NCBI GenBank assembly: GCA_013151025.1
Contig: JAADJC010000004.1
Span: 1 to 47,778 of the forward strand
Length of the DNA stretch: 47,778 nt
Reading direction: 5' to 3'
Source of the DNA: Acidobacteriota bacterium
GTDB lineage: Bacteria > Acidobacteriota > Holophagae > Thermotomaculales > Thermotomaculaceae
A program made the position numbers and the translations under genes. Below the pieces are notes generated by a model that saw only the letters and a program-made list of their open reading frames with translations, searched no databases and had not been told where the DNA came from. Below, in pieces: positions 2,285 to 31,424 of this stretch. Every line of letters begins with the position of its first letter. Position 1 is the stretch's first letter.

Positions 2285-2948
2285 TTCAGTCTTTCACGTC
2301 CAGGTCCCGGATCAGGTTGTAATGACATCACTTGTTTTTGTCATTTCAGTAGTGATTTTTGTTCTACTCAGAAAGTCTCCGGAACTGGTGCCGACTCCGG
2401 CGCAACAACTTTACGAAGGGATACTGAAGGCCATAGACAACATGCTGGTGGACAACATCGGCAAGCGGGGACACCAGTTTCTGCCATTTGTAACCGCACT
2501 GGGAATTTTTATCTTCATTTCCAACGTCATCGGGTTAGTCCCTGGATTCACGCCTGCAACCGGCAACCTGAACACCACTGCGGCCTGCGCAGTGGCGGTG
2601 TTTCTATATTACAATTTTCATGGGATCAAGGCACATGGCTTGGGCTACCTGGAACAGTTTATTGCACCCAGAGGGCCATTGGCGCTCCGAATTCCCATGT
2701 CAATCCTCTTTATCCCCATTGAAATTATTTCCCATCTGGCTCGGCCGTTTTCGCTGGCAATTCGTCTCTTTGCCAACATGGTTGGAGACCACCTTGTGTT
2801 GGGCGTTTTTCTCGCCCTGGTTCCGTTTGTGATTGTGATTCCGATTCCGCTCCTGGGGCTGGGCCTGTTCGTCTGTTTTATTCAGACCCTGGTTTTCGTG
2901 TTGCTGGCGACTATTTATCTGTCAGGTGCGGTTGCTGAATCGCACTGA
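2247..2948 (+). CDS. atpB: F0F1 ATP synthase subunit a
   Basis: This 233-residue hydrophobic protein has all the main subunit a signatures: an N-terminal periplasmic part (HVQVPDQV), the FISNVIGLVPG motif around residues 90-101, and the conserved helix SLAIRLFANMVGDH, whose arginine (R173) is the essential residue facing the c-ring in the proton or sodium half-channels. The last helix ends with a LATIYLSGAV motif. It forms the stator channel of the F0 sector in the inner membrane. The start lies inside the end of atpI, and atpE follows after 60 nt with a hairpin between them. No b-subunit gene follows, so the remaining subunits must be encoded elsewhere. Confidence 0.95.
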   Translation: MHQEASILTLLINSVFHVQVPDQVVMTSLVFVISVVIFVLLRKSPELVPTPAQQLYEGILKAIDNMLVDNIGKRGHQFLPFVTALGIFIFISNVIGLVPGFTPATGNLNTTAACAVAVFLYYNFHGIKAHGLGYLEQFIAPRGPLALRIPMSILFIPIEIISHLARPFSLAIRLFANMVGDHLVLGVFLALVPFVIVIPIPLLGLGLFVCFIQTLVFVLLATIYLSGAVAESH

Positions 2949-2962
2949 TGTATAAGGTTCTT

Positions 2963-2981
2963 AACAGCTTCAGAAGCTGTT
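2963..2981 (+). promoter_or_regulatory. Intercistronic hairpin between atpB and atpE
   Basis: AACAGCTT and AAGCTGTT form a perfect 8-bp stem around a 3-nt CAG loop, placed 20 nt before the TGGAGG Shine-Dalgarno of atpE. There is no U-tract, so it is not a terminator. In other bacteria atpE needs far higher expression than atpB, and structures before atpE adjust mRNA stability or translation. That role is inferred here; the inverted repeat is seen directly. Confidence 0.55.
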
Positions 2982-3008
2982 GAGCATAGATCATTTTCTG
3001 GAGGTTCT

Positions 3009-3332
3009 ATGAAGAGATTCTTGTTGTTCTCCGTCACCGTTGCCGCAGTGCTGTTCGCCGTTCAACCGGCGCTAGCTCAGGAAGCGGCAACACACGCTGC
3101 CGAGGCTGCACCCGCCGCCATCCCCTACGGGGCAATTGCCGGTGCGTTGGCCATGGGCTTTGCGGCTGCGTTCGGTGCAATCGGACAGGGCAAGGCTGTT
3201 ATGGCAGCATGCGAAGGCACGGCGCGGAACCCCGGCGCAACCGGTAGTATCCGGACCACATTACTGATTGGTCTGGCTTTTATCGAGTCGCTGGTGCTCT
3301 ATGTACTCGTCATCGTCTTCGTGATCAAATAA
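3009..3332 (+). CDS. atpE: F0F1 ATP synthase subunit c, with an N-terminal signal peptide
   Basis: The product has 107 residues. Residues 1-23 look like a cleavable signal peptide ending ALA|Q, then a short Ala/Glu-rich linker and the two-helix hairpin. Helix 1 holds the Gly-rich GAIGQGKA segment (Q60), the polar loop is ARNPGA, and helix 2 carries the ion-binding carboxylate E93 in FIESLVLY. Glutamate plus the neighbouring S94, Y98 and Q60 gives four of the positions seen in sodium-binding c-rings, but the Thr after the Ser is Leu. The protein forms the rotor ring. A good Shine-Dalgarno (TGGAGG) fixes the start. A strong terminator follows, closing the F0 operon. Confidence 0.95.
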
Positions 3333-3370
3333 TAAGTAAGAACCCTTTTCCATTTCATCATAACTACTTG

Positions 3371-3396
3371 AGCAGGCAGAAATGCCTGCTTTTTTT
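3371..3396 (+). terminator. Rho-independent terminator after atpE
   Basis: AGCAGGCA and TGCCTGCT form a perfect 8-bp stem around a GAAA tetraloop, followed by a run of seven T. It lies 38 nt after the atpE stop and ends the atpZ-I-B-E transcript. Confidence 0.92.
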
Positions 3397-3556
3397 CCAC
3401 CCGCTGGCGGCCTGACACCCCATCATTCCACATTTTTTCCCGTCCCATCATCACTCAAAAAGCAAGATTCATCGTTGCCTCCTTCCCCACTGCCGTGGTA
3501 AAGTAATTGTTAGATAATGGAATGGACTTTTACACAGGCGAAAACAGGAGGGGATC

Positions 3557-3874
3557 TTGTTAAAGAGAATGCTGAAAAGCCCGGCAGGTATTGCCGGCAT
3601 CCTGGTATTGGCATTCGGGCTGCTTCTTGGCCTTCAATATGACCCGAAGCTCTACAAAGAACAGCGTACTTATGGCATAGTGGATCCGTATCAGGCAGGA
3701 GAAATCATGGCAAAAAATGAACAAAAGCGCCAGAACCGGGAGATGGAGCTGGCCATGATATGGGGAAGCATCGCCTTTGGCCTGCTGATGTTGGGAAGCG
3801 CCGCATGGAAAGCCTCCCGCCCTGAATCAGGTGAAGATAGGGCAAATTTGGATCTAGAAGATAAAGAAGGATAA
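3557..3874 (+). CDS. Small two-helix membrane protein, unknown function
   Basis: I do not recognise this 105-residue protein. It has one hydrophobic helix at about residues 10-26 (IAGILVLAFGLLLGL), a polar central part with YDPKLYKEQ and DPYQAGEIMAKNEQKR, a second helix at about 66-83 (MIWGSIAFGLLMLGSAAW) and an acidic tail. The start is a TTG: AGGAGGGG ends about 4 nt before it, whereas the first ATG (3569) is too far from that Shine-Dalgarno. The gene is 26 nt before the tectonin protein gene and is probably co-transcribed with it. Confidence 0.6.
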   Translation: MLKRMLKSPAGIAGILVLAFGLLLGLQYDPKLYKEQRTYGIVDPYQAGEIMAKNEQKRQNREMELAMIWGSIAFGLLMLGSAAWKASRPESGEDRANLDLEDKEG

Positions 3875-3900
3875 CAATTTTAGCAAGAAAGGAGATACAT

Positions 3901-5745
3901 ATGTGGAAAAAGGCGCCCGGAGCATTCATTCAATTTTTTTTCAAGGCAGTTATTACTTTCAGTTTTCTATCAATATTGACTCTTCCGACTCAGGCAAAGG
4001 AGTGGAAAACGGCTGTGATTGTGCCGGGAGCACAGATATTGTCAAGCGGCACTGTAAATTTTACAGGGTGTTTCACCGCGAGTAATTCCGGAGCCGAAGC
4101 GTGGTACAGGTGCAGGGATCAGCGCCGCCGCCACCGGATGGACTGGAACACAGTCTGGTCCCGGGTTCACCGGAATGTGAATTTCCGACTGAATGAGCCG
4201 GGTTTTGTATACCTCATCTTTACAACCCACGTGGATAAAAGCTGGCCCTATAATGGCGGTGGAGCCACAATATCGAAAAAAGAAAAAAATCGGAAATGGA
4301 AGAATGTGTGGCTGGGGCCCGGCCTTCGATACGCTATGTTCCGGGGTAAAAAACTGGTCAGCACCGGGCCATACGCAAACCAGCCCGGCCCTCCCGCCCT
4401 TCGCTACCGGATTAACAGAGACGGAAAGATTCAGTTCTGGGAAGGAATTCCCCGGTACAGCAAAGGCCAGTATCGGCTCACCCTGACCGAAGCCATGTTT
4501 CATAACACAAACACAGCGAACAAAACCTATCATCCTTGCCGGTTAGACTACAAACTGGTATTTGTACCGGATAAACCGATTCAAATCGTGACAACGGTTT
4601 CTCCTTCAACACCGAACCATACCCAGCACGTAACCAATGGACAGTTTTCCTACACGTGGACTGTCAACAAGGCCGGCAACATTTACCGGTTAAACAACAA
4701 AATGGGCTGGACACACATTCCCGGCAAAAAGGCAAAAGATGTTGGCGTAGGAGCCAACGGCTCAGTCTGGATTGTCGGCACCAGCCCGGTTTATGGCGGA
4801 TATGCCATCTATCGCTGGATGGAAACCAAGTTTATACGGGTGGACGGTGGTGCGGTCCGAATTGATGTGGACCCGAACGGTATGCCCTGGGCGGTAAACA
4901 ATATGAACGATATCTATCGCCGGGTGAACGACCATTGGGAACGCATGCCGGGTAAGGCCGTGGACATTGGCATCGGTGCAAACGGTTCCGTGTGGGTGAT
5001 TGGAATCGGCCGGACCCCGGGCGGTCATGGGATATGGCGGTGGAATGGAAGTAACTGGGACAGAGTTCAAGGTGCCGCGGTTCGAATTGACGTGGATGTT
5101 GCCGGAAATCCCTGGGTCGTGAACGACGCCGGCGGTATTTTCAAATGGAACGGCAAGGGATGGAACAAGCTTCCGGGCCTGGGCACGGATATTACTGTTG
5201 GTGGCGGAAGTGAGTGGGTAATTGGAACCGACTCCGTGCCTGGCGGACACGGCATTTATAAGTGGAGCAGCCGGATACGGAACTGGGAACGCATTCCGGG
5301 CGGCGCGGTGGCTGTTTCTGCAGGGGGAACCCCCCGGGGATTTAATGGAGGAAGCCCTATACCGGCAGCCCACATTGTGCATTCCGCACGTCACAACTTA
5401 AAGAGCGGGAAGTACAAAGTGGAAACACGGGTAAACGGTACCCTGTACGACTCTGCCTGGACCCTGCTTGTTCGTAACGGAAAAATTACAGGCACATCCA
5501 CATGGCCATGCTGCCCCGGCCCCCGTACTGATGCGATGAAGGGGAAAGTAACCGGAAATACTGTCGTCATTAAACGGGATTGCTCCGGGCAGGGCTGGAA
5601 CGGTGGCTGCATCCAGACCTACACAGGTAAAATGAACGGAAATCGCATTGAAGGGACAGCCACCGGAACCGGATTGGCCGGGTATAAAACTACATGGACA
5701 TTGTTCCTGGACAGTAGAATCTCTCTCAATTTCCGCAAACGCTGA
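3901..5745 (+). CDS. Secreted protein with a tectonin-type beta-propeller
   Basis: This 614-residue protein starts with a signal peptide (hydrophobic residues about 10-30, probable cleavage after TQA). Residues about 33-230 form an N-terminal domain I do not recognise, with two Cys (FTGCFTAS and WYRCRD). Residues about 240-480 contain at least five tectonin-like repeats of roughly 35-40 residues, each with the pattern W-x-x-x-P-G-x-A-x-D-[IV]-x-[IV]-G-x-x-G-x-x-W-[VI]: for example GANGSVWIVG, GANGSVWVIG and GGGSEWVIG. The C-terminal part (about 495-614) is rich in beta strands with Cys pairs (PCCPGP, GGCIQT). Tectonin propellers in other proteins bind glycans such as lipopolysaccharide; a surface-binding role here is inference. 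A strong AAGGAG Shine-Dalgarno precedes the ATG. Confidence 0.75.
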   Translation: MWKKAPGAFIQFFFKAVITFSFLSILTLPTQAKEWKTAVIVPGAQILSSGTVNFTGCFTASNSGAEAWYRCRDQRRRHRMDWNTVWSRVHRNVNFRLNEPGFVYLIFTTHVDKSWPYNGGGATISKKEKNRKWKNVWLGPGLRYAMFRGKKLVSTGPYANQPGPPALRYRINRDGKIQFWEGIPRYSKGQYRLTLTEAMFHNTNTANKTYHPCRLDYKLVFVPDKPIQIVTTVSPSTPNHTQHVTNGQFSYTWTVNKAGNIYRLNNKMGWTHIPGKKAKDVGVGANGSVWIVGTSPVYGGYAIYRWMETKFIRVDGGAVRIDVDPNGMPWAVNNMNDIYRRVNDHWERMPGKAVDIGIGANGSVWVIGIGRTPGGHGIWRWNGSNWDRVQGAAVRIDVDVAGNPWVVNDAGGIFKWNGKGWNKLPGLGTDITVGGGSEWVIGTDSVPGGHGIYKWSSRIRNWERIPGGAVAVSAGGTPRGFNGGSPIPAAHIVHSARHNLKSGKYKVETRVNGTLYDSAWTLLVRNGKITGTSTWPCCPGPRTDAMKGKVTGNTVVIKRDCSGQGWNGGCIQTYTGKMNGNRIEGTATGTGLAGYKTTWTLFLDSRISLNFRKR

Positions 5746-5873
5746 TACCAGCCCGGGCGGGAATCTGCCAGTGATAATTCACGTAAGGCCTGTGTTTTTT
5801 GTGATAGTGACAGTACTATTGCAATGTGAGTAATCAATCTTAAAGAATTGTATTGATGGGATTGAATAATAAA

Positions 5874-5940
5874 GGGGAAAGGGGGCCAGAATAGCTATCT
5901 GAGTTACTCTTTTTATGGAAAGCTGGCCCCAACCCTTTCC
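5874..5940 (-). terminator. Long inverted repeat, terminator-like on the minus strand
   Basis: GGGGCCAG at 5882-5889 pairs with CTGGCCCC at 5923-5930, and the flanks GGAAAG and CTTTCC extend the pairing with a small bulge. The intervening loop is 33 nt. Read on the minus strand, the right arm is followed by TTTATTATT, so it could end the transcript of the Cys-rich gene whose stop is 19 nt away. CTGGCCCC recurs at 6425-6432 on the other side of that gene. The function is inferred. Confidence 0.4.
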
Positions 5941-5958
5941 GGAAAAAACGTTAATTCT

Positions 5959-6267
5959 CTATTCGTACATTTCGCAGTGCCAGATCCCACCCTCTGGTCG
6001 CTTGACTTTGCAATCGAAACGCCGGGCACAATTAACACAAATGCCCGGTTCAACAGAGGGAAGTGGTGCGGGCGGTGGTGTCGTATGAAAGCGGATACCG
6101 CGAAGGTTTTGGACTTCAAATTCTTCGCAAAAAAATACCGGTGATTTCCTTTCCCTGGCATTCTGGCAAGTATCTCCATGAATACAAGTTACGCAGAGAT
6201 CATTGAAAGGATGCTCAACCTTTGTCTGTCGCACTTTCTTTTGTTTACTGATGGTTGGAATGGCCAT
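5959..6267 (-). CDS. Duplicated four-cysteine (zinc-ribbon-like) small protein under a sigma-54 promoter
   Basis: This 102-residue protein is not a family I can name. It contains two copies of the same module, C-x2-C-x5-C-x(11-12)-C-E-x-[FY]: Cys 25, 28, 34, 47 and Cys 77, 80, 86, 98, joined by a Pro-rich linker. The spacing suggests metal binding or redox activity. The N-terminus is basic (SKQKKVRQTK). The ATG at 6267 is chosen because AGGAGG lies 5 nt upstream; the longer in-frame start at 6330 lacks one and lies near the predicted transcription start. A good -24/-12 promoter lies about 60 nt upstream of the expected transcript start-to-ATG leader, and the adjacent genes encode an NtrC-type activator and its kinase, so this is the likely direct target of that pair. 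Confidence 0.72.
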   Translation of the reverse strand: MAIPTISKQKKVRQTKVEHPFNDLCVTCIHGDTCQNARERKSPVFFCEEFEVQNLRGIRFHTTPPPAPLPSVEPGICVNCARRFDCKVKRPEGGIWHCEMYE

Positions 6268-6338
6268 GAAACCCTCCTTATGGTCTGGGGCGGCATACTT
6301 ATATGGTTGCCGCAATATTCCACTCGCCACTAATATAA

Positions 6339-6354
6339 AGCAAGGTCTATGCCA
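6339..6354 (-). promoter_or_regulatory. Sigma-54 (-24/-12) promoter of the Cys-rich gene
   Basis: On the minus strand the sequence reads TGGCAT-AGACC-TTGCT, matching the consensus TGGCAC-N5-TTGCW at nearly every position, with the invariant GG and GC separated by exactly 10 nt. Transcription should start near 6328, giving a leader of about 60 nt before the ATG at 6267. An NtrC-family activator gene lies directly upstream. Confidence 0.85.
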
Positions 6355-6432
6355 GAATAAGGCAAAGGAGTAAAGGATCGTAATATACAGAAAATAAATA
6401 TACCTAATGTAGAATAGAAAAACTCTGGCCCC

Positions 6433-6475
6433 AAGGGGAAATGGGGCATTTCACCCCTATGGGGTAAAATTACCC
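6433..6475. promoter_or_regulatory. Palindromes upstream of the sigma-54 promoter (possible enhancer sites)
   Basis: Two dyads lie 85-135 nt upstream of the -24/-12 element: AAATG-GGG-CATTT at 6439-6451, inside a longer imperfect G/C-flanked dyad, and GGGTAA-AA-TTACCC at 6462-6475, which spans the stop codon of the regulator gene. This is the usual distance for binding sites of NtrC-type activators. They could instead belong to the regulator's transcript end. Confidence 0.45.
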
Positions 6476-7819
6476 ACTTAATTCCATCTTCTTCAGTTTT
6501 TCACGGAGTGTTTTACGGTCAATTCCCAGGATTTCTGCAGCGTGGGTTTTATTCCCTTCACATATCTCTAACGTGTGTCGGATATGCTCTTGTTCCATCT
6601 CCTGTAAGGTCTTCATGGTACTGTTGTTGTGGGGAATGGCGGTGCGCATAACTGGCGGAAGATGCCGGGTATCAATTTTACCACCCTCCTCCATTACCAC
6701 AATACGGTGAATGATATTCTCAAGTTCCCGAACATTCCCCGGCCAGTGATATCGCAGAAACGCGGAAATTGTTCCGTCTGTAAATTCAGGAATCTGTGTG
6801 CCACTTTCATTGGCATATTTCTCCGCAAAATATCTTGCCAACAGAATGATATCGTCTCCGCGCTCCCGCAAAGGAGGCACTATTATTGAAACAATATTCA
6901 GCCGAAAGAACAGGTCTTCCCGGAATAAGCCCTTCTGGACCAATATTTCCAGATTACGGTTTGTGGCCGCGACAATCCTGAGTTTGACCTTGTGAATTCG
7001 GCTGGAACCCACCATATTGATTTCTTTTTCCTGCAAAAAACGCAGAAGTTTTACCTGCATGGATAAGGGCGTTTCCCCAATTTCATCCAGAAATATAGTT
7101 CCCCCTTCAGCGCTTTGAAAAAAACCGGCCCTCGTCTCCGCCGCACCGGTGAAGGCACCTTTTACGTAACCAAACAGGGAGCTTTCCAACAATCCCTCCG
7201 GGATACCGGAACAATTTACAGGTACAAAGGGCGCTGTTGCACGGCAACTGGCATAGTGAATTGCCCGGGCAACCAGCTCCTTCCCGGTGCCACTCTCTCC
7301 GGAAATAAGAACGGTGGCATCGGCACGGGCCGCCTTTTCAATTCTCCCGAATAATACCCGCATGGAATCGGATTCCCCGACTAACCCTTTGAAGTGAGGA
7401 CGGCTCTTCCCACCGTATCCACTGGCGGTTTTTCTGTTTTTCTGTTTTTTCAAAGCAGTTCTCACCGCATTCAGCAACTCTTCATCAGTGAATGGTTTGG
7501 TCAGGTACTCTTCAGCACCAATTTTAACCGCTGTAACCGCCCCTTCAATTGTCGGATAACCGGTAATCATAATAACTTCGGTTTCAGGTATGTTTTCCTT
7601 AACATAACGAACCAGTTCAAGCCCACTTGGTCCCGGCATTTTCAGGTCAGTAATAATCAGATCCACCTGTTGCTCTCCCAGAAAGGAAATGGCTTCCTCT
7701 ACATTCGATGCGGTCAGAGCTGTAAAGGATGCGGCTATCAGGTTTCTGCTGATAACTTCCCTGGTCAAAGCTGAATCGTCCACTACCAGAACAGTTGCAG
7801 AAGATTTTCTACCACTCAT
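6470..7819 (-). CDS. Sigma-54-dependent response regulator (NtrC/AtoC family)
   Basis: This 449-residue protein has the full three-domain layout. Residues 8-125 are a receiver domain with the acidic pair DD (14-15), phosphoacceptor D58 in ITDLKMPG and K108 in LTKPF. Residues about 145-370 are an AAA+ domain with Walker A GESGTGKE (174-181), the sigma-54-contacting GAFTGA loop (221-226) and Walker B GGTIFLDEIGE (239-249). Residues about 405-447 are a Fis-type helix-turn-helix (HAAEILGIDRKTLREKL). It activates sigma-54 RNA polymerase by ATP hydrolysis when phosphorylated. It overlaps the kinase gene by 11 nt. The best local target is the Cys-rich gene just downstream; a second matching promoter lies at 24528. 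Confidence 0.95.
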   Translation of the reverse strand: MSGRKSSATVLVVDDSALTREVISRNLIAASFTALTASNVEEAISFLGEQQVDLIITDLKMPGPSGLELVRYVKENIPETEVIMITGYPTIEGAVTAVKIGAEEYLTKPFTDEELLNAVRTALKKQKNRKTASGYGGKSRPHFKGLVGESDSMRVLFGRIEKAARADATVLISGESGTGKELVARAIHYASCRATAPFVPVNCSGIPEGLLESSLFGYVKGAFTGAAETRAGFFQSAEGGTIFLDEIGETPLSMQVKLLRFLQEKEINMVGSSRIHKVKLRIVAATNRNLEILVQKGLFREDLFFRLNIVSIIVPPLRERGDDIILLARYFAEKYANESGTQIPEFTDGTISAFLRYHWPGNVRELENIIHRIVVMEEGGKIDTRHLPPVMRTAIPHNNSTMKTLQEMEQEHIRHTLEICEGNKTHAAEILGIDRKTLREKLKKMELSG

Positions 7820-9437
7820 GATTTTCCCTTTCAGAATCCGGATTTCTGATAATCGGCACTCTGACAGTAAAGGTTGTACCCTTGCCGGATTCGCTCTCTA
7901 CGTCTATGGTGCCGTTGTGGGCCAGAATGATGCCATGGACCACAGACAAACCCAGGCCGGTTCCCTTGTCTATATCTTTGGTGGTAAAAAACGGCAAAAA
8001 AACCTGCTGACGGATCATTTCCGTCATCCCTGTCCCTGTATCAACCACCATTAACTCAAGAGTATCTGCGTCACACCCGGTCTTGATAAGCAGTTCTCCC
8101 CCCCGTGGCATTGCTTGAATGGCATTGACCGCAAGGTTGATAATGACCTGGATAAACTGGGAACTGTCCAATACCATTTCCGGGATATTCTCCCCCAGTT
8201 GCAGATCCAATACTATCCCATCTCTGGACAAGCGCGATTCCAGTAAAGAAAGTGCTTGATGTACCACCTTGTTAATATGAGTTGCAGCCTTTTGGGGTTG
8301 TGTTTGCCTGGCAAACAACATCAGTTTTCGCACAATCTCTCTTCCATGAAGGGCGGCAGATTCAATCTTAGTAATATCGTTTATTGCAGTTTCCGGCAGG
8401 GTGGTGTCCTTTGTCAAAAGCTGTGCAAACCCCAACACGTTTCCCAAGGGTTCATTTAATTCATGGGCCACACCTGCCGCCAGTTTCCCGATAGTTGCCA
8501 GCCGATCGGCGTGGAGTAGTTGTTTGTAAAGTTGTTCCTGCTCCTTTTCCAGCTCCCGGTGCTCAATAACAACAACGAGCTGATGGGCAATGGTATTGAT
8601 CAGGTTACGTTCTTCCTTCAGAAACGGGCCTTCATTCATGATTGGCATGTTTTGAAGGTAAACAACCTCAATCCAGCCTCGATTCTGACCGCTTACCACA
8701 ATTTCCGCCTGCAGAGGCCGGGGACGGGATATATAATTGGGGGTCGTAAACACATTGGAATCAAAAACGATCTTTCCAGCCGTAACATCCGGGTATTGCC
8801 AGGCAGGAGGAAGCAATTTTATCACCTCCTGAAAAACCTCGGAGATCGACAGGTTCGGGTCGGCCGACAGTTGTGCGGTTCTGTACAAACAGGTTAACTC
8901 CTTTACCCTTTCTATTAATGCCGATTGATGTTCAAAACTGGCCATAGCAAGAGAAAGAGTATCAGCAATCATGTCGATCAGGGTACAGTCATCGTTGGAA
9001 AACGGAGAAAAAGAGGTGGCCATTACCAGACTGCCGATTTTTTCCATTCCTGACCAGAGGGGGGTGAAATGGGAATAATGCGTTACCTTATGAGACAACG
9101 GCTTCTGTGAAAGTGGACGGTGTACATGGCGCACTTTTCGGAACAGCGGCTCGGCATCTTCGATGGATTCCACCGATGGGGCATTGTAAAGCGAAGAAAA
9201 TTCCGGGCGACCATTGGTCATGTAAAGGCGGTAACAAGTCCGTTTGTCTCCTGGGCCGGTTACAATAATAACCTCATCATTCTTGAACATTTTTTGTAGA
9301 ATTAAGAGAACGCATTCCATAAATTCGCTGAAGACAGTCTGTTTAACCGCTTCCGAAAGAATCTGCTGATTCAGATTGAACAGCCGTTTGGAAGCCACAG
9401 GATTATGTTCCAGAAGTTCCGAAAATCGTGTATCCAT
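7809..9437 (-). CDS. Cytosolic sensor histidine kinase with GAF-like input domains
   Basis: The product has about 542 residues from the ATG at 9437 (MDTRFSEL); an in-frame TTG at 9476 would add 13 residues but has no better ribosome site. The first 300 residues resemble two GAF-type sensory domains without transmembrane segments. Then come a short coiled coil (residues about 290-310), a HisKA domain with phosphoacceptor His near residue 325 in GVAHELNEP, and a HATPase_c domain with an N-box (NLAVNAIQAM), a G1 box (DTGTGM) and a G2 box (GTGLGLSVV). It should phosphorylate the co-encoded NtrC-type regulator. The absence of membrane helices points to an intracellular signal, perhaps redox or a small ligand; the ligand is unknown. 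Confidence 0.92.
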   Translation of the reverse strand: MDTRFSELLEHNPVASKRLFNLNQQILSEAVKQTVFSEFMECVLLILQKMFKNDEVIIVTGPGDKRTCYRLYMTNGRPEFSSLYNAPSVESIEDAEPLFRKVRHVHRPLSQKPLSHKVTHYSHFTPLWSGMEKIGSLVMATSFSPFSNDDCTLIDMIADTLSLAMASFEHQSALIERVKELTCLYRTAQLSADPNLSISEVFQEVIKLLPPAWQYPDVTAGKIVFDSNVFTTPNYISRPRPLQAEIVVSGQNRGWIEVVYLQNMPIMNEGPFLKEERNLINTIAHQLVVVIEHRELEKEQEQLYKQLLHADRLATIGKLAAGVAHELNEPLGNVLGFAQLLTKDTTLPETAINDITKIESAALHGREIVRKLMLFARQTQPQKAATHINKVVHQALSLLESRLSRDGIVLDLQLGENIPEMVLDSSQFIQVIINLAVNAIQAMPRGGELLIKTGCDADTLELMVVDTGTGMTEMIRQQVFLPFFTTKDIDKGTGLGLSVVHGIILAHNGTIDVESESGKGTTFTVRVPIIRNPDSERENHEW

Positions 9438-9500
9438 GACTGGATTGTAGATACAGGGATCACCAGTGTCAAACAAAAAGGTGTTAGAAGAAGCAATTCC

Positions 9501-10451
9501 TCAGTGTTTCCATGGAAAGAGGATACCCGAAAGCGAATAGTGGGGAATAGAATCAAACGATGCTGTGGTGTTGTGAAGAATTGCGTCGGCAGCGAGAAGG
9601 CCGCTTTCGATTGCCGGGCCGATTCCCTCCCCCATGTCCAGTGTCGCCAGGCCGGCGGCATCTCCAACGATGATGGCACAACCATCCTGAACCGGGCCGT
9701 TTTGACGGAGATAATAACTGCACGCACCCGGTGTGGGAGGCGGCGATGCCAACAGTTTCTTTTTCAGCAGGAAACCCACAAACCGCCGCCAGTGTTCCCG
9801 GATATCCGCTCCTTTTTTAACCATAGAAGTCTGTTTTCCGCCGATACCGATATTGAGCCAACCGCCTTTTTTGGGGACATACCAGGCGTAGCCGGGCAAT
9901 CCATGCTGGAAAAACCAGAGGTGGCAATGGGTTGTCGACATCGCCACCTGAAATTCCAGTTCCATGGAAACAATCTGTTTTTCTCCCTCACGGGGACAAA
10001 TTTCTCTGAAAAAAGTGCGATACACCGGGCAACCTGTTCCTCCTGCCCCCACCAACCAGTTGCACCGGAACTTCCCGTCAATGACAAAGCCTTCGCCCTG
10101 TCGCTCAATACGTTGAGCCACATGTTGTTGGACCGGTACCTCTGCACGGTTCAGCAGCCAGTGGTCAAATTCAGTTCTTCGGATGGAAAACTGCCGGGTT
10201 GGAACCGGGAACGGAAGGCCATGAATATGGAAATACAGGGTTCGAAATTTTACAATGCCATGGGGATAAGCTGTTTCTGAAATTTCCAGTCTTTTCAAGG
10301 TTCGGAGAGTAATCCAGCCGGCACAGAGCTTCAACCGGGGAAAATCGGCCTTGTCCAGAATCAGAACGTCTCTGCCCGCTTCTTTCAGTTTCCACGCCGC
10401 AGTTGAACCGGCAGGGCCGCCGCCGACAATAACAACATCTGTGAAAATCAT
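9501..10451 (-). CDS. FAD-dependent oxidoreductase, geranylgeranyl reductase-like
   Basis: This 316-residue protein opens with a Rossmann dinucleotide motif (VVIVGGGPAGS, residues about 6-16), then the KLCAGW segment near residue 41 that in this family contains the conserved Cys, and later the VGDAAGLATLDMGEGIGPA motif (about 262-280) that binds the FAD phosphate. These are the marks of the geranylgeranyl reductase/digeranylgeranylglycerophospholipid reductase group, which saturates isoprenoid or lipid double bonds. It is shorter than the 380-400 residues common in the group, lacking part of the C-terminal substrate domain. It begins 12 nt after cfa and is surely co-transcribed, so a lipid substrate is likely. 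Confidence 0.82.
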   Translation of the reverse strand: MIFTDVVIVGGGPAGSTAAWKLKEAGRDVLILDKADFPRLKLCAGWITLRTLKRLEISETAYPHGIVKFRTLYFHIHGLPFPVPTRQFSIRRTEFDHWLLNRAEVPVQQHVAQRIERQGEGFVIDGKFRCNWLVGAGGTGCPVYRTFFREICPREGEKQIVSMELEFQVAMSTTHCHLWFFQHGLPGYAWYVPKKGGWLNIGIGGKQTSMVKKGADIREHWRRFVGFLLKKKLLASPPPTPGACSYYLRQNGPVQDGCAIIVGDAAGLATLDMGEGIGPAIESGLLAADAILHNTTASFDSIPHYSLSGILFPWKH

Positions 10452-10463
10452 TCCTGAACACCC

Positions 10464-11585
10464 CTACCCGATTCGGCAGTCAGGTTGTTTCCGGCCGGGG
10501 CGGGTCATGACAATCTGCCACAACTGACTGCTCCGGGAGCGGAATCCCCCGGCACAACTCAGCAGGTAAAACCGCCACATTCTGTAAAACCTGCTATCGT
10601 AGCGAACTTTCAATTCTGGCCATGCCTTCTCAAAATTTTCATACCAGGCCATCAGGGTTCGGTCATAATCCGGGCCGAAGTTATGCAGGTCTTCCACAAT
10701 AAAAATTCCTTCCATTGCCTTTGCCAACTGGGCAATGGAAGGCAACATGCCATTTGGGAAAATATACTTTGTGGTCCATGGGTTGGCAGTAGTCGTACTT
10801 ATTTTCCCGCCAATCGTGTGAATAAAGGCGATGCCATCTTGTTTCAATGTATGGTTCACCACTTCCATGTAGGTACGGTAATTCTTGTACCCGATGTGTT
10901 CCATGATACCGATAGAAACCACACGGTCGTACTCACCGGATACACTCCGGTAGTCCTTCAGCAGGAGTTCCACCGGCAAGCCCTTCCACAACTTCCGGCC
11001 CAGTTCTACCTGCCGTTTTGAAACGGTCACACCGGTCACATGGACCCCATATTTTTCCGCCGCATATCCGGCAAAAGAGCCGAAGCCGCATCCCAGTTCC
11101 AACACTTTCATCCCCGGTTCCAGCTCTATTTTACGGCAGACCATGTCAAGTTTGGCTTCCTGTGCTTCATCCAGAGTCTTCGCCTCTTTCCAGTAGCCGC
11201 AGGTATAGTTCATCCGTTTGTCCAGTATGGCCCGGTAGAGGTCATTCCCAGCGTCATAATGCTGTTCCCCCACCTGATAGGCCCGGGAAATCTTCTGCAG
11301 GTTGAAAACCCGGGACTTGAATACATGCATAAGCAGTTTCCAGTTGCCCCTGATCTCCCTATCCAGATTGATGAGCAGAACCTTGCTGATAAGTTCATCC
11401 AATGCCTCACAATCCCACCAGCCGTCCATGTAGGACTCACCCAACCCCAGCGCGCCCTCAGCAAACACCCGCCGATAGAAGTGCGGATTATGAACCTTTA
11501 TGTCAAAGAGCTGATTTCCGTTTATCGTCACCCCAGCCCTTGCCAACATGTCACGCACGAAGGATTCTGACGTATCCGATGTCAT
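10464..11585 (-). CDS. cfa: Cyclopropane-fatty-acyl-phospholipid synthase family methyltransferase
   Basis: This 373-residue protein matches Cfa over its whole length. It has an N-terminal substrate domain (YMDGWWDCEALDE), a SAM-binding motif VLELGCGFGSFAGYAA (about residues 162-177), and residues corresponding to the bicarbonate-binding active site of E. coli Cfa: Cys in NYTCGYW, Glu in GIMEHIG, His-x-Ile in IHTIGG and Tyr in LMAWYENF. The enzyme transfers a methylene group from S-adenosylmethionine to cis double bonds of membrane phospholipids. The start is supported by AGGAGG, and a sigma-70 promoter lies just upstream. Pairing with a flavoprotein raises the possibility of a methyl-branched or otherwise modified product. 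Confidence 0.93.
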   Translation of the reverse strand: MTSDTSESFVRDMLARAGVTINGNQLFDIKVHNPHFYRRVFAEGALGLGESYMDGWWDCEALDELISKVLLINLDREIRGNWKLLMHVFKSRVFNLQKISRAYQVGEQHYDAGNDLYRAILDKRMNYTCGYWKEAKTLDEAQEAKLDMVCRKIELEPGMKVLELGCGFGSFAGYAAEKYGVHVTGVTVSKRQVELGRKLWKGLPVELLLKDYRSVSGEYDRVVSIGIMEHIGYKNYRTYMEVVNHTLKQDGIAFIHTIGGKISTTTANPWTTKYIFPNGMLPSIAQLAKAMEGIFIVEDLHNFGPDYDRTLMAWYENFEKAWPELKVRYDSRFYRMWRFYLLSCAGGFRSRSSQLWQIVMTRPGRKQPDCRIG

Positions 11586-25097: not shown

Positions 25098-28028
25098 TTG
25101 AAAAACCATTGTTGTTGCCTGGGGACATTATCCCTCACCGTGATAGCCCTGTTTTTCATCGCTTCTTTTCCTGCATCCGCCCTGGACCCATCAAAGAAAC
25201 TGGATCAACACACTCTGAATATGTTTACAACCGAGGATGGCCTGCCTCAAAGCTCTGTTATGAACCTTGTTCAGACCGGAGATGGCTATATCTGGATGGG
25301 AACCTTTGAAGGACTGGCCCGCTATGATGGCGAACAATTTACTGTTTTCAATAAGAATAAGGTTCCGGAACTGGAAAACAACACCATTAAGGCACTTTTT
25401 AAAGACAGCCACGGCTGTTTGTGGATTGGCACGCCCAGCGGACTCAGCTGTTATCGGCAGGGAGTTTTCAGACATTTCACCGTAAAAGACGGCCTTGCAG
25501 GCAATTTCATCACCGCAATAAGTGAGGACAGGGACCATCACCTCTGGGTAGGTACCAATAGCGGCGTCAGCACGTATGACAACATGGGCCATTTTACCTC
25601 TTTTACAGTTGAAAACGGATTGATGGCTGGATACATTTCCGCTCTGGCGCCTTCGCCGGATGGGGGAATATGGGTCGGAACGCAACTGGGGCTGGACCGT
25701 ATTCAGAAAGGTAAAATTAGGCACTTTGATGTACCATCCGATTTTCCGAGAATGAACATCCATACCCTCTACCTGGAACAATCCGGCTCCACCCTCTGGA
25801 TTGGAATTCAGGGCTCCGGTTTGATCACATTCCGGGATAACCGTTTTGAAAGAATCGGCGACAAACAGGTTGGCCTGACAGATGTCCGCGCCATTTTTCG
25901 GGACCGGGAAGGCACGCTGTGGATCGGCAGTAACGGCGGAGGACTGCTTACTCTGTCACAAACAGGACAGTTCTCAGTTATTTCCGAAAAGGAAGGACTG
26001 GTAAACACATCGGTTCGGGCACTGCTTGAAGATCGGGAAGGCAGCTTGTGGGTCGGTACCCGTGGTGGCCTGTTCCAGTTGAAAGACGATAAGTTTACCC
26101 TTCTGAATACCAGAAACGGCCTCCCTGTCGACAGTGTCCGCAGCCTCCTGCCGGCAAAAAAAGGTGGGGTCTGGATTGGAACAGTCGGGGGTGGACTGAC
26201 TCTGTATCAAAATGATCGTGTTACCACTTTTAAGCATCTTGAAGCACGTTATATCTGGTCCCTTGCCGAGGACAGTGATAACTCTCTCTGGGTCGGCACG
26301 TATGGGAATGGATTGTACCATCTGAAAAAAGGACGTTTCACAAACTACTCCACTCAAAACGGCTTGTCAAACAATGTCGTTCGGGCCATCTTGGTACTGC
26401 CAAACGGCGAAATCTGGGTTGGAACAAACGGAGGCGGCATCAGTATTATCTCAAAAACCAGTATCCGAACCATCACAAAGAAGGAAGGACTTTCGGAAAA
26501 TTACATCTACTCGCTGGCTCAGGATAGGGAAGGTACCATCTGGGCCGGGACATACAACAGTGGTATCAACCGAATTCAAAATGGAAAAATTACCATATTT
26601 GATTCAAGGACGGGATTTACAAATACCGGAATATGGGCGATACATCCCGACCCGGATGGTTCGATCTGGATCGGCACCGGGAACGACGGACTGTTCCACT
26701 ACAAAAGCGGCCGTTTTCATCAGTTTACGATGCGAAAAGGCCTGTACAGCGACTCCATCTTCTCCATCACAGAAGATGACAGGGGAAATTTCTGGATGAA
26801 CTGCAACCGGGGCATCTTTACGGTCAGCAAAAATCTTCTGAAAGAAATGGAACAAAACATGCGGGATTCCATCACCTGCAGGTCTTTTGGAAAAGCAGAA
26901 GGCTTCAAAGCAACTGAAAGCAATGGACCTGCTCAATTTGCAGCCTGCCGGACAGCGGACGGAGCTCTCTGGTTTTCCAGCATCAAAGGGGCCATTGTTA
27001 TCCATCCGGATAAAATGCCGGTGAACTTAACCCCTCCACCGGTAACGATTGAATCAATTCGTGTAAACGGAGAAAATTATTCCCCCTATGAGTCGATTTG
27101 TGCACTCCCTGGCAGGGGAGAAATAGAAATTCAATACGCCGGCCTCAGTTTTCTCCTGCCGGATAAAGTTGCATTCAAATACCGGCTTGAAGGATTTGAC
27201 TCCGACTGGATAGATGCCGGGCACAGAAAAGCTGCATATTATACCAACTTACCACCTGGACAGTATACTTTCCATGTTATTGCCGCCAACAACGATGGCA
27301 TCTGGAACAAGACCGGCCGAACTCTCAGCATCACACTTCAGCCCCGGTTTACCCAGACCGGCTGGTTCAAGAGCATTGTGGTGGTTTTGATCATCTTCTT
27401 TCTGTTAGTCCTGTATCTGTTACGTGTGAAACAGATCCGCCACCGGGAACGCACACTGCAAGCAGAAGTTCAGGAAAGAACATATCAGCTTAATCAACTG
27501 AATCAGAAACTGGCTGACCTGGCGCGGACCGACGGGCTGACCGGCATTGCGAACCATCGTTATCTCATGCACCAGCTTCAGAGAGACTGGAAAACAGCCT
27601 TTCGGGATTCTGCCCCCATCTCCCTTATTTTCATTGATATTGACAGATTCAAGCAGTACAACGACACTTTTGGCCACCAGGCCGGAGATGCCTGCCTGAA
27701 GACAATTGCCGAAACCCTTCAGAAAGAGCTGAAACGCCCCCGGGATTTTCTGGCCCGCTATGGAGGAGAAGAGTTTGTTGCCATTCTTCCGAACACAGGG
27801 AAAGACGGTGCCCTGAATATGGCGGAAACCCTCCGCGTTGCGGTTGAACACAGTTGTTCGAATTATAAGAAAAAAGTACAGGTTACCATCAGCCTCGGGG
27901 TCAGTACAGCAATGCCGTTGAAGCATAATGACTTTGAAAAACTGATTAGCGCAGCAGACACGGCTCTCTACATGGCCAAGCATAATGGCCGAAATCGCGT
28001 GGAGTTCTCGGAGATCGCCCACAGATAA
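25098..28028 (+). CDS. Two-component-type propeller receptor fused to a GGDEF diguanylate cyclase
   Basis: The start is a TTG with AGGAGG 5 nt upstream. Residues 1-28 form a signal peptide. From about 40 to 640 there are 12-14 reg_prop repeats with the pattern [LIV]-W-[IV]-G-T-x-x-G-[LI]; this is enough for two seven-bladed periplasmic propellers. A Y_Y_Y domain follows (about 655-740, with KYRLEGFDSDW), then one membrane helix (about 758-775), a short coiled coil and a cytosolic GGDEF domain (about 805-970). The active site is GGEEF (889-893) with the inhibitory site R880-x-x-D883 present, so an active, product-inhibited cyclic-di-GMP synthase is expected. It senses an external ligand, unknown here. 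It differs from classical hybrid systems in output. Confidence 0.95.
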   Translation: MKNHCCCLGTLSLTVIALFFIASFPASALDPSKKLDQHTLNMFTTEDGLPQSSVMNLVQTGDGYIWMGTFEGLARYDGEQFTVFNKNKVPELENNTIKALFKDSHGCLWIGTPSGLSCYRQGVFRHFTVKDGLAGNFITAISEDRDHHLWVGTNSGVSTYDNMGHFTSFTVENGLMAGYISALAPSPDGGIWVGTQLGLDRIQKGKIRHFDVPSDFPRMNIHTLYLEQSGSTLWIGIQGSGLITFRDNRFERIGDKQVGLTDVRAIFRDREGTLWIGSNGGGLLTLSQTGQFSVISEKEGLVNTSVRALLEDREGSLWVGTRGGLFQLKDDKFTLLNTRNGLPVDSVRSLLPAKKGGVWIGTVGGGLTLYQNDRVTTFKHLEARYIWSLAEDSDNSLWVGTYGNGLYHLKKGRFTNYSTQNGLSNNVVRAILVLPNGEIWVGTNGGGISIISKTSIRTITKKEGLSENYIYSLAQDREGTIWAGTYNSGINRIQNGKITIFDSRTGFTNTGIWAIHPDPDGSIWIGTGNDGLFHYKSGRFHQFTMRKGLYSDSIFSITEDDRGNFWMNCNRGIFTVSKNLLKEMEQNMRDSITCRSFGKAEGFKATESNGPAQFAACRTADGALWFSSIKGAIVIHPDKMPVNLTPPPVTIESIRVNGENYSPYESICALPGRGEIEIQYAGLSFLLPDKVAFKYRLEGFDSDWIDAGHRKAAYYTNLPPGQYTFHVIAANNDGIWNKTGRTLSITLQPRFTQTGWFKSIVVVLIIFFLLVLYLLRVKQIRHRERTLQAEVQERTYQLNQLNQKLADLARTDGLTGIANHRYLMHQLQRDWKTAFRDSAPISLIFIDIDRFKQYNDTFGHQAGDACLKTIAETLQKELKRPRDFLARYGGEEFVAILPNTGKDGALNMAETLRVAVEHSCSNYKKKVQVTISLGVSTAMPLKHNDFEKLISAADTALYMAKHNGRNRVEFSEIAHR

Positions 28029-28203: not shown

Positions 28204-28232
28204 TTGATTATCGGTCGATTGGATGATATGAT
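28204..28232 (+). promoter_or_regulatory. Sigma-70-type promoter of the antiporter operon
   Basis: TTGATT (28204-28209) and TATGAT (28227-28232) are separated by 17 nt. The leader to the GTG start at 28274 would be about 35 nt and includes AAGGGG as ribosome site. Confidence 0.6.
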
Positions 28233-28273: not shown

Positions 28274-28729
28274 GTGAAACTAGACAAGTTTGTCCGGAAA
28301 ACACACATTCGATTCCAGTTTGACACGGCGGATAAAACCGATTTTTTCAAAAAAATGGTGAAAGACATTACAAAAGTCCATCCTGATTTTGAAGAAGAAC
28401 GATTGCTGGAACTCTTTTACCTTCGGGAAGAAACCATGAGTACCGGGATTGGAAATGGTATTGCCATCCCACACGTCATGTATGAAAAGTGTGAAAACCA
28501 GGAGATTTTTGTCTATCGGCTGACCAAACCCATTGACTTTGCCGCACTGGACAAGAAACCGGTTGAACTGATTTTCGCCATGATCGGGGCTCCTTCGCCC
28601 AGCAATATTATTAACCTTCAGATTCTCGCCAAGCTGGCACTAATGATGAAACACCCGGAATTTCTGGAAAAACTCCTTTCGGCAGAAAATGCGGATGCCT
28701 TCTTTGAGGCATTGATTCACTATGACTGA
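28274..28729 (+). CDS. PTS EIIA-like (fructose/nitrogen-type) regulatory domain protein
   Basis: This 151-residue protein is a standalone PTS_EIIA type 2 domain. Its phosphoacceptor His is H67 in STGIGNGIAIPHVMYEK, the family signature, and the ending LAKLALMMKHPEFLEKLL fits as well. Such proteins receive phosphate from HPr/EI-type phosphotransferases and often regulate rather than transport; the nitrogen PTS form controls potassium transporters. The start is a GTG with AAGGGG about 9 nt upstream. It opens an operon with a PII-like protein and two transporters, overlapping the next gene by 8 nt, so it is best read as the regulator of the transporters. Confidence 0.88.
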   Translation: MKLDKFVRKTHIRFQFDTADKTDFFKKMVKDITKVHPDFEEERLLELFYLREETMSTGIGNGIAIPHVMYEKCENQEIFVYRLTKPIDFAALDKKPVELIFAMIGAPSPSNIINLQILAKLALMMKHPEFLEKLLSAENADAFFEALIHYD

Positions 28730-29063
28730 CGCAAAGCTGCTTGTCTGTATAATCGAAAAAGAAGAACGTCTGGAGGATGTTCTGGAAGCCCTGCTGGAAG
28801 AGGGAATTACCGGAGCCAGCATCCTGGACGCCCGGGGGATGTTTGAATATATGGCAGACGAAATCCCACTCTTTGCCGGATTTCGTGGACTCATCCAGGG
28901 GAATAATCCCACCAACAAAGTAATTCTATCCATCGTACCGGATTCGGTCACCCTGCACCATGCCATGGACACCATCCAGTCAGTCTATGGGGATTTCTCA
29001 CTCCCCAATACCGGAATTATGTTTTCACTGGATATCGGGGACACCCGAGGGCTTAAAACCTGA
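28722..29063 (+). CDS. PII-like signalling protein
   Basis: This 113-residue protein has the ferredoxin-like beta-alpha-beta layout of PII/CutA-type proteins: LLVCIIEKEERLEDVLEALLEEGITGASILDARGM (first half), a middle region with LFAGFRGLIQGN in the place of the T-loop, KVILSIVPDSVTLHHAMDTIQSVYGDFSLPNTGIMFSLDIG in the second half. It lacks the classical PII nucleotide motifs, so it belongs to the broader PII-like group that bind adenine nucleotides, carboxylates or metals and control membrane transporters. It overlaps the EIIA-like gene by 8 nt and stops 1 nt before the next start. Confidence 0.75.
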   Translation: MTDAKLLVCIIEKEERLEDVLEALLEEGITGASILDARGMFEYMADEIPLFAGFRGLIQGNNPTNKVILSIVPDSVTLHHAMDTIQSVYGDFSLPNTGIMFSLDIGDTRGLKT

Positions 29064-29064
29064 T

Positions 29065-30129
29065 ATGCTTGCCCGTCTTTTTGTTATCCTCGCAGTCGCA
29101 GTGGCGTATTTCAGTTTTTCAGTAATTTTTCGAAAGCGAAAACTTTCTACATTCGTAGGGATGGAATACCTGATTCTGGGGTTTCTGCTGTCAAAACTCC
29201 CCATGGAGCAAGCATCACTGAAGCCGTTGCTGTTTCCTTTCCTGGGTTGGATTGGTCTTCTAATCGGCCTGGAGGTGGATTTTCATTACCTGAAAGAACT
29301 GCCGAAACATTTCCTGACAAAAACAGTCGTATGGACAACCGGGTTGACTGCAGGAATCGCACTGGGGATTTTTCTTCTGACCGGTAAACCCGGCCTTTGC
29401 GTATTCGCCCTGGCACTGGCACCTATCAGTTTTCGTACTGTTTCCCATTTTATTCCGGACCGTGGGATTGAAAATCGTACCGCCCTTTTCTTTGTCAGTA
29501 TCCTGCCCTTCTTTATTCTCCTGCTGTTTACCGGTGTCCAGATACTTACCCTCCCACTGATTTCCATTCTGTACCTGCTGTGTTTCAGCACCTTGTTCGC
29601 TATTTTCTCACGGACGCTGCTTTCATTGAATCATAGGCCGGAAGGGCTGCTTCTGGTTCTCATTGGAGTCATTGTATTGGTATCTGAAACCTGTGCTGTT
29701 TTCCACATATCCCCCCTGACAGTCTCCTTCTTTGCCGGCGTATATCTTGCCAACACCTGCAAAAAATGTGACCCGATTTACAGGGACATCGCGGCCGATG
29801 AAAAACCCCTTTACATGCTATTTCTCCTCCTGGTAGGGATGGTATCCGGCATTCCGGATGACCCGGAATTCCTCTTTTCCACCCTCTCCATCGTACTTCT
29901 GGCAGGGCTTCTTCGACGGCTTTTTGCGAAAGCACACTGGTTCAATCTCAACCGGTACTCCTGGGCATATTTCATGGCACCGGGCGGGCTGGCCATTGCC
30001 ATTGGTACGGATATCTGGATGCGGGAGGGGATATCCCTGCCAGGGGTATGGTTTCCGGCTTTTCTGGTCGCCGTCATGGTTCTCCAGGCAATGGGTGTGC
30101 TGTCGGGAAAAATGGAGGAGATGAAGTGA
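29065..30129 (+). CDS. CPA2-like (Kef-type) membrane transport protein A
   Basis: The product has 354 residues from the ATG at 29065, which lies 1 nt after the previous stop. It has ten to eleven hydrophobic segments. GWIGLLIGLEVDFHYLKELPKHF (about residues 61-83) is the typical end of helix 3 of Kef/NhaA-like proteins, and AGVYLANTC (about 225-233) and APGGLAIAIG (about 305-314) correspond to later repeats. It is shorter and more divergent than usual exchangers, and the acidic pair of the ion site is not obvious. It may be an accessory subunit of the exchanger encoded next, whose start it overlaps by 4 nt. Confidence 0.7.
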   Translation: MLARLFVILAVAVAYFSFSVIFRKRKLSTFVGMEYLILGFLLSKLPMEQASLKPLLFPFLGWIGLLIGLEVDFHYLKELPKHFLTKTVVWTTGLTAGIALGIFLLTGKPGLCVFALALAPISFRTVSHFIPDRGIENRTALFFVSILPFFILLLFTGVQILTLPLISILYLLCFSTLFAIFSRTLLSLNHRPEGLLLVLIGVIVLVSETCAVFHISPLTVSFFAGVYLANTCKKCDPIYRDIAADEKPLYMLFLLLVGMVSGIPDDPEFLFSTLSIVLLAGLLRRLFAKAHWFNLNRYSWAYFMAPGGLAIAIGTDIWMREGISLPGVWFPAFLVAVMVLQAMGVLSGKMEEMK

Positions 30130-31424
30130 ACTGGAAAAACATTGGAAGCCTGTTGGTCAACACTATCGCGATTTCTGTTCTGTTTTTTCTGATATTGGCC
30201 GGCAGCAGCACGGTATCTCACAATTCAGTTATCGGCCCCTACCTGGCATTGGGCTTTCTCATTATTGTTGCATATCTCTTCGGCGTTCTGGCAAGAGAAC
30301 TGGGGTTCCCCTCCCTCACCGGGAACCTGCTGGCCGGTATTCTGTTCGGGCCATCAGTACTGGGTCTCATCTCCCATAACGACATCCGTTCCCTTGAGTT
30401 CATCAACACCATCGCCCTGAGCTTTATTGCATTGTCTGCCGGAGGCGAACTTAAACTCAAGAACCTCCGGGAAAATGCCCGTGCTATCGCCGGCATCATC
30501 CTGAGCCATATTTCTCTGCTTTTCGGCGGTATCCTGATAGTTATGGTTCCACTTCTGAGTTTTTCCGGTATCCAGGGAATTTCAGGCACAAAGGTATCGT
30601 GGATGGCCGCCTTTATGCTGGCCATCGTCGCCATTGCAAACTCCCCGGCATCCACCATTGCAGTTATTAATGAATACAAGGCAAAGGGACCATTCACAGA
30701 CGTTGCATTGGGCGTGACCATGGTGAAAGACGTAGTGGTACTCCTGCTGTTTGCCGTTTCCATGGGCATCATCCGGGGTATTGTCGGCACAACACCCCTT
30801 TCCCTTTCTTTCCTGCTTCACACCTTTGGAGATATCTTTCTATCCATTGGAGCGGGACTGGCATACGGTGGGCTGATGATCCTGTTTTACCGGTTTGTGG
30901 CAAAGGAAATTACCGTTTTTATTGTCATTGCCGCTTTTCTCGCCAACGAACTGGCTCACTTTGCCGGGTTGGAACAGATGCTCATGTGCATGATTGCCGG
31001 TTTTGTCGTTCAGAACTTCTCCCGGCAGGGACCCTTGATGATTGAAGGAATCGAAAAAAGCCACCTTCCCATCTACGTTATTTTCTTCTCCATTGCCGGT
31101 GCCGGGTTGGATTTTTCCTATTTGGGATCGGTTTACATTCTGGTTACCCTATTTGTCATTCTCCGGGCCGGCCTTATCTTCGGCTCAACCTTGCTGGGGG
31201 CAAAGTTCACCGGGGCCAGCCCTGCCATAAGAAAATACGCGTGGACTGGGTTCCTCACCAATGCCGGGCTGACACTGAGTATTGCCATCCTTGTGGAAAA
31301 AGCGTTTCCGGACTGGGGCCAGCCACTTAAGGCTATCATCATTTCCGTCATTGCCATCAACCAGATTATCGGCCCGGTATTATTCAAGATTGGCCTGGTA
31401 AAGAGCGGTGAAGTGAAGACATAG
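30126..31424 (+). CDS. Cation:proton antiporter, CPA2 family
   Basis: The product has 432 residues from the GTG at 30126 (GTGA overlap with the previous stop; GGAGGAGATGAA gives the ribosome site). It has about 12 membrane helices. FGVLARELGFPSLTGNLLAGILFGPSVLG (about residues 49-77) is the family's N-terminal motif, with later ANSPASTIAVINEYKAKGPFTDVALGVTMVKDVVVL covering the ion-binding helix and the conserved Asp before helix 6. No TrkA-N or other cytosolic domain follows, so control must come from separate proteins, here the EIIA-like and PII-like products. The ion (Na+ or K+) cannot be told from sequence. Confidence 0.88.
   Translation: MNWKNIGSLLVNTIAISVLFFLILAGSSTVSHNSVIGPYLALGFLIIVAYLFGVLARELGFPSLTGNLLAGILFGPSVLGLISHNDIRSLEFINTIALSFIALSAGGELKLKNLRENARAIAGIILSHISLLFGGILIVMVPLLSFSGIQGISGTKVSWMAAFMLAIVAIANSPASTIAVINEYKAKGPFTDVALGVTMVKDVVVLLLFAVSMGIIRGIVGTTPLSLSFLLHTFGDIFLSIGAGLAYGGLMILFYRFVAKEITVFIVIAAFLANELAHFAGLEQMLMCMIAGFVVQNFSRQGPLMIEGIEKSHLPIYVIFFSIAGAGLDFSYLGSVYILVTLFVILRAGLIFGSTLLGAKFTGASPAIRKYAWTGFLTNAGLTLSIAILVEKAFPDWGQPLKAIIISVIAINQIIGPVLFKIGLVKSGEVKT

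Follow-up and report, generated by a model that had tools for sequence, protein, structure and literature searches.

What function is served by a phosphotransferase EIIA protein, a PII-like protein and two membrane proteins of the CPA superfamily encoded together at positions 28274-31424 of the window (the full analysed stretch of 47,778 nt, from a host genome of 2.6 Mb in 142 contigs), and do they make up a single, regulated ion-exchange system? The four genes lie on the + strand in the order EIIA, PII-like, CPAb, CPAa, and all of them overlap or abut. The EIIA gene (28274..28729, 151 aa, GTG start, PtsN/fructose-type PTS IIA domain) overlaps the PII-like gene (28722..29063, 113 aa) by 8 nt. 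The latter is separated by a gap of 1 nt from the gene of CPAb, a divergent CPA-superfamily membrane protein (29065..30129, 354 aa), which in turn overlaps by 4 nt that of CPAa, a CPA-type cation/proton exchanger (30126..31424, 432 aa, GTG start). The tight packing described in an earlier note on this DNA is thus borne out by the coordinates. The candidate sigma-70-like promoter that the same note placed at 28204 (28204..28232, + strand, TTGATT-17-TATGAT) is present with a 9/12 consensus match, but nine matches of this kind are found in the region (4.4 +/- 2.1 expected by chance), which makes it weak evidence; the gene overlaps are better evidence for an operon. The upstream gene (25098-28028, + strand) encodes a sensor with two-component-regulator propellers, Y_Y_Y and GGDEF domains, and no link of this gene to the operon is shown. 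The downstream neighbour is a convergent phosphoesterase gene.

The EIIA protein matches PF00359 of Pfam with E=7.8e-30 (104 bits vs the cut-off of 27), and the nearest PDB relatives of its family profile are PtsN (E=1e-32); the score against the PtsN equivalog TIGR01419 of NCBIfam stays below the cut-off (73 vs 138.7 bits). Residues R51, E52, T57, A64, P66 and H67 are invariant in the alignment (27/27 sequences), and H67 is the active-site (phosphoacceptor) histidine, so that both the family and the key residue named in the earlier note are confirmed. HPr and EI are present in all 14 module genomes tested. A search of the host genome for these two proteins, suggested previously, locates both beside HPr kinase in a PTS cluster with the gene order EIIA - HPr kinase - EIIA-Man - HPr - EI (G000:C42, L086, 2024-6015, - strand), and the EIIA of this cluster is the second one of the genome. 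No PTS_EIIC, the one EIIC family searched, is found in six of six module genomes, the host included. With EI, HPr and HPr kinase present and PTS_EIIC not found, the PTS relay looks regulatory, and the operon EIIA is plausibly an output of the EI-HPr relay, with phosphorylation predicted. The assignment of the protein as a component of a sugar PTS was considered and rejected on the PTS_EIIC result, within the scope of that family. In genomes of family f27, a second EIIA gene is convergent to the module (L064 6320-6790 and L066 6694-7164, both on the - strand).

The PII-like protein matches PF00543 of Pfam exactly at the cut-off (E=2.4e-5). Its AF2 model (pLDDT 75, fair confidence) shows the beta-alpha-beta repeat of the PII fold, and the best PDB matches found with this model in Foldseek are all GlnK/GlnB/GlnZ (prob 1.00); taken together, these results uphold the proposed family. 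The canonical B-loop signature (PROSITE pattern [ST]xxxG[DY]G[KR][IV][FW]) and the uridylylation motif (Y[KR]G[AS][AE]Y) are each found in 0 of 28 members of the family, and a canonical nitrogen PII of the GlnB/GlnK type was rejected on this basis. The ligand and the modification of the PII-like protein probably differ from those of GlnB. Another PII of the host genome, on contig C129, carries the canonical B-loop signature. Within the T-loop region of the PII-like family, the segment P-[ILV]-FAG is strongly conserved; in the window's protein it is part of the conserved motif PxFAGxR.

Genes of the same subfamily are also found in other surroundings. One follows the gene of a DUF1538 membrane protein, a possible PII-gated transporter (L069 6221-6664, + strand, G336), and another stands directly after a DcuC-family carrier gene in Acetoanaerobium noterae (L070 6001-6369, + strand, pTPELB2; the record is filed as a plasmid, is 2.6 Mb long and looks like a chromosome). 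The subfamily is therefore not exclusive to the CPAa/CPAb exchanger. On a plasmid of Subdoligranulum variabile, a PII-like gene precedes a single CPA exchanger (L143 5592-7261, + strand), downstream of an ORF resembling 6-phosphofructokinase, so that the PII-like/CPA pairing exists outside Acidobacteriota.

CPAa matches PF00999 (Na_H_Exchanger) of Pfam with E=4.2e-23 (82 bits vs the cut-off of 26.2). The match spans residues 47-420 of 432, leaving 12 residues after the membrane domain, which agrees with the earlier statement that this exchanger has no cytosolic regulatory domain; an ordinary Kef system was rejected, as CPAa has no C-terminal TrkA_N/RCK domain. The family profile is nearest to NapA 5bz2 (E=2.5e-10). 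The best subfamily match is TIGR00932 (CPA2), although with 43 vs 238 bits CPAa falls outside this model. The NapA-equivalent transport-site aspartate, D202, and R347 are invariant (34/34), and the residue preceding the aspartate is Lys, Gln or Met across the family (Lys201-Asp202 in the window). CPAb, in turn, has no match in Pfam or NCBIfam, and its profile gives chance matches only against solved structures. The full-length comparison of the CPAb and CPAa families with hhalign (99.8%, E=4e-29, 389 columns) identifies CPAb, as had been supposed, as a shorter and divergent member of the same superfamily. An AF2 model of CPAb built from four sequences is uninformative (pLDDT 36.6) and was kept out of the conclusions. 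The catalytic Asp motif is replaced by LPF in the window, read as L-P or P-F in this family depending on the alignment, and by N-N, D-G or other residues elsewhere; a D-D motif is retained in few lineages only (L019, L050, L057, L135, L136, L138). Judged by these residues, most lineages, that of the window included, have a CPAb that is a degenerate paralogue.

The genome-wide survey covered Acidobacteriota only (396 sampled genomes, 210 genera), and the PII-like profile is found there in 39 genomes and 26 genera, the weakest matches being marginal. Three genus-level relatives have the four genes in the same order with 75-92% identity, and the order is also kept in four genomes from another genus of this family, with ~48/70/30/53% identity for EIIA/PII-like/CPAb/CPAa. 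Altogether, the four-gene set occurs in six families of the phylum and in two gene orders: EIIA-PII-CPAb-CPAa in f36, f45 and part of f27 and f49, and CPAb-CPAa-EIIA-PII in the remaining members of f27 and f49. In one genus of f3 (G010 and G012), EIIA and the PII-like protein are fused in one ORF, followed by CPAb and CPAa. In a seventh family (f60, G394) the order is PII-like-CPAb-CPAa, with EIIA not adjoining. The earlier note had regarded a lack of conservation of the two small genes beside the transporters as an argument against its proposal; they are conserved there in six families. Since other genomes contain the set as well, with different genes around it, its co-location is not a matter of chance, an explanation ruled out by the six families and the EIIA-PII fusion.

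Over 21 complete modules, the distances of the four proteins are correlated with one another (r 0.83-0.95), which partly reflects shared species history. In all four proteins, the members of f49 and f27 are divided between two lineages in the same way, cutting across the families, from which it follows that the genes travel as a block and do not merely follow the species. A scan of the genome collection for the full module beyond Acidobacteriota gave close relatives only, the nearest named relatives of the host genome being Acidobacteriota metagenome bins; plasmid records from outside the phylum contain isolated PII-like/carrier pairs only (Subdoligranulum, Acetoanaerobium). The recurrence of the set across the phylum argues that the four genes very probably encode one ion-exchange system, and double regulation of the exchanger by EIIA and the PII-like protein is likely.

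Alternatively, the exchanger would only be co-expressed with EIIA and the PII-like protein, and these would act chiefly on one another or elsewhere, for example on a sensor kinase or transcription. In f7 and f52 the EIIA-PII pair stands apart as a free gene pair, the two proteins exist as a fusion, and PtsN is known to control KdpD and TrkA as well (PMC13104625). Nevertheless, the f7 and f52 genomes still encode both exchangers elsewhere (in tandem in f52), and the two genes are linked to the exchanger pair again and again, in six families and in two gene orders, so that we consider this reading improbable.

The two membrane proteins have a history of their own. In a maximum-likelihood tree of 34 pairs, one branch parts all CPAa from all CPAb with a support of 100/100, and both groups stay intact after the addition of eight single CPA proteins. 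Across the 34 pairs, the distances within one group follow those within the other (r=0.92), and CPAb evolves faster than CPAa (mean distance 0.77 vs 0.65). A search with CPAb found tandem CPAb-CPAa genes with no EIIA or PII-like gene in the fetched neighbourhood in f6, f16, f33, f46, f53, f58, f70 and f77 (the CPAb copy of f53 is interrupted by a stop). CPAa and CPAb are an old pair, also found without the two small proteins. CPAb might instead be a non-transporting receptor or scaffold, a pseudo-exchanger which anchors PII and EIIA outside the translocating dimer, as its degenerate motif and faster evolution would allow. This is very unlikely, because some families have the CPAb-CPAa pair but no adjoining PII/EIIA, and the role of CPAb cannot then be anchoring alone.

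Two of the CPAa proteins from these sister pairs run, in one reading frame and beside CPAb, into a trehalose-6-phosphate synthase domain (PF00982, GT20, E about 1e-108), at L136 (G110:C21) 2504-6055 and L139 (G166:C96) 2792-6430, both on the - strand. The fusion suggests a direct coupling of ion exchange to osmolyte synthesis and, for the pair in general, a role in osmotic/K+ homeostasis. Three others carry a C-terminal extension of ~1,000 residues ending in an AAA_16/STAND-like NTPase region (L122, G271, 2721-7241, - strand; L123, G202, 2491-6963, - strand; L127, G299, 6794-11149, + strand).

CPA homologues whose structures are known are usually homodimers, and CPAa and CPAb could each form one. 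There would then be two separate homodimers, CPAb transporting by way of an altered site or carrying a different substrate, and the regulators would act on one or both. The few CPAb lineages that retain the DD motif and the distance between the CPAb and CPAa genes in f7 favour such an arrangement and also count against a heteromer. The loss of the catalytic aspartate in most CPAb lineages, the consistent pairing of the genes, which often overlap, and the parallel trees count against it, and we find it unlikely, though the strongest of the rival readings.

The explanation that we prefer, with a probability of roughly 0.6, is a heteromeric cation/H+ exchanger gated by the state of the phosphorelay and by a PII-like sensor. 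It draws on gene content, conservation, fusion, co-divergence, the pattern of kept and lost residues, and the relay genes; the heteromer, the direct contacts, the ion, the ligand and the direction of gating are inferred within it. In this exchanger two paralogous CPA subunits would form one membrane transport system, with CPAa carrying the conserved transport site and CPAb, its site mostly lost, as an obligate partner, probably both dimer partner and docking or regulatory subunit. Two cytosolic switch proteins would set the activity. The EI-HPr relay would phosphorylate His67 of EIIA, giving a readout of PEP/energy or carbon state, and, if the E. coli precedent applies, the unphosphorylated EIIA would bind and inhibit the exchanger. 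The PII-like protein is probably trimeric and would bind a small ligand and contact the exchanger via its PxFAGxR segment. The likeliest task is efflux of K+ (or Na+) against H+ for osmotic/pH homeostasis, with K+ as the most likely exported ion. Apart from the homodimer arguments, the lack in CPAa of the region through which the E. coli exchanger YcgO contacts PtsN, the occurrence of the PII-like subfamily beside other carriers, and the share of species history in the correlated distances weigh against this explanation. The interpretation in the earlier note is thus partly supported: the family assignments and the functional unit stand, double regulation is likely, and the heteromer is possible. 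More tentatively, and with the balance slightly against it, the pair may be an obligate heterodimer of a catalytic exchanger and a pseudo-exchanger, jointly gated by a PTS protein and a non-canonical, sometimes fused, PII-like protein, and re-used elsewhere with trehalose-phosphate synthase or an NTPase region. We know of no heteromeric CPA architecture with a degenerate partner, and the CPAa/CPAb pair would be new in this respect.

No published description of the four-gene combination was found in the open-access literature, in line with the earlier remark that no characterised system with exactly this make-up is known. Control of transporters by EIIA and by PII is each already known, from separate systems; here the genes of both regulators accompany a single exchanger, and in one genus the two proteins are even fused. 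If the explanation is true, ion and pH homeostasis would respond jointly to carbon/energy state and to a metabolite signal.

The closest precedent is PtsN/YcgO of E. coli, in which an EIIA of the same family, when unphosphorylated, binds and directly inhibits a K+/H+ antiporter of the CPA superfamily (PMC11808508). YcgO differs in being a CPA1 protein with a cytosolic RCK/CorC region as the PtsN site, and neither a paralogous second exchanger subunit nor a PII-like protein is described for it. As CPAa has no CorC/RCK region, the contact of EIIA cannot be as in YcgO, and its docking site may be CPAb or the PII-like protein. In GlnK-AmtB and SbtB-SbtA a PII-superfamily protein directly gates a transporter, GlnK plugging AmtB, through a known T-loop contact, and SbtB locking SbtA (PMC10710835). 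The targets there are an ammonium channel and a bicarbonate symporter, both trimers, where the present system has two CPA proteins; its PII-like protein has no canonical nucleotide-loop signature. The Kef systems (KefFC/KefGB) likewise combine a K+/H+ exchanger of the CPA type and a soluble protein that regulates it, but there is here no RCK/TrkA_N domain and no partner of the quinone-reductase type. By profile, the nearest solved relatives of CPAa are the NapA structures of Thermus thermophilus (5bz2, 4bwz), with which it shares the transport-site aspartate; NapA is a single-gene exchanger with an Asp pair, whereas CPAa has Lys/Gln/Met-Asp at this site and a paralogous partner gene.
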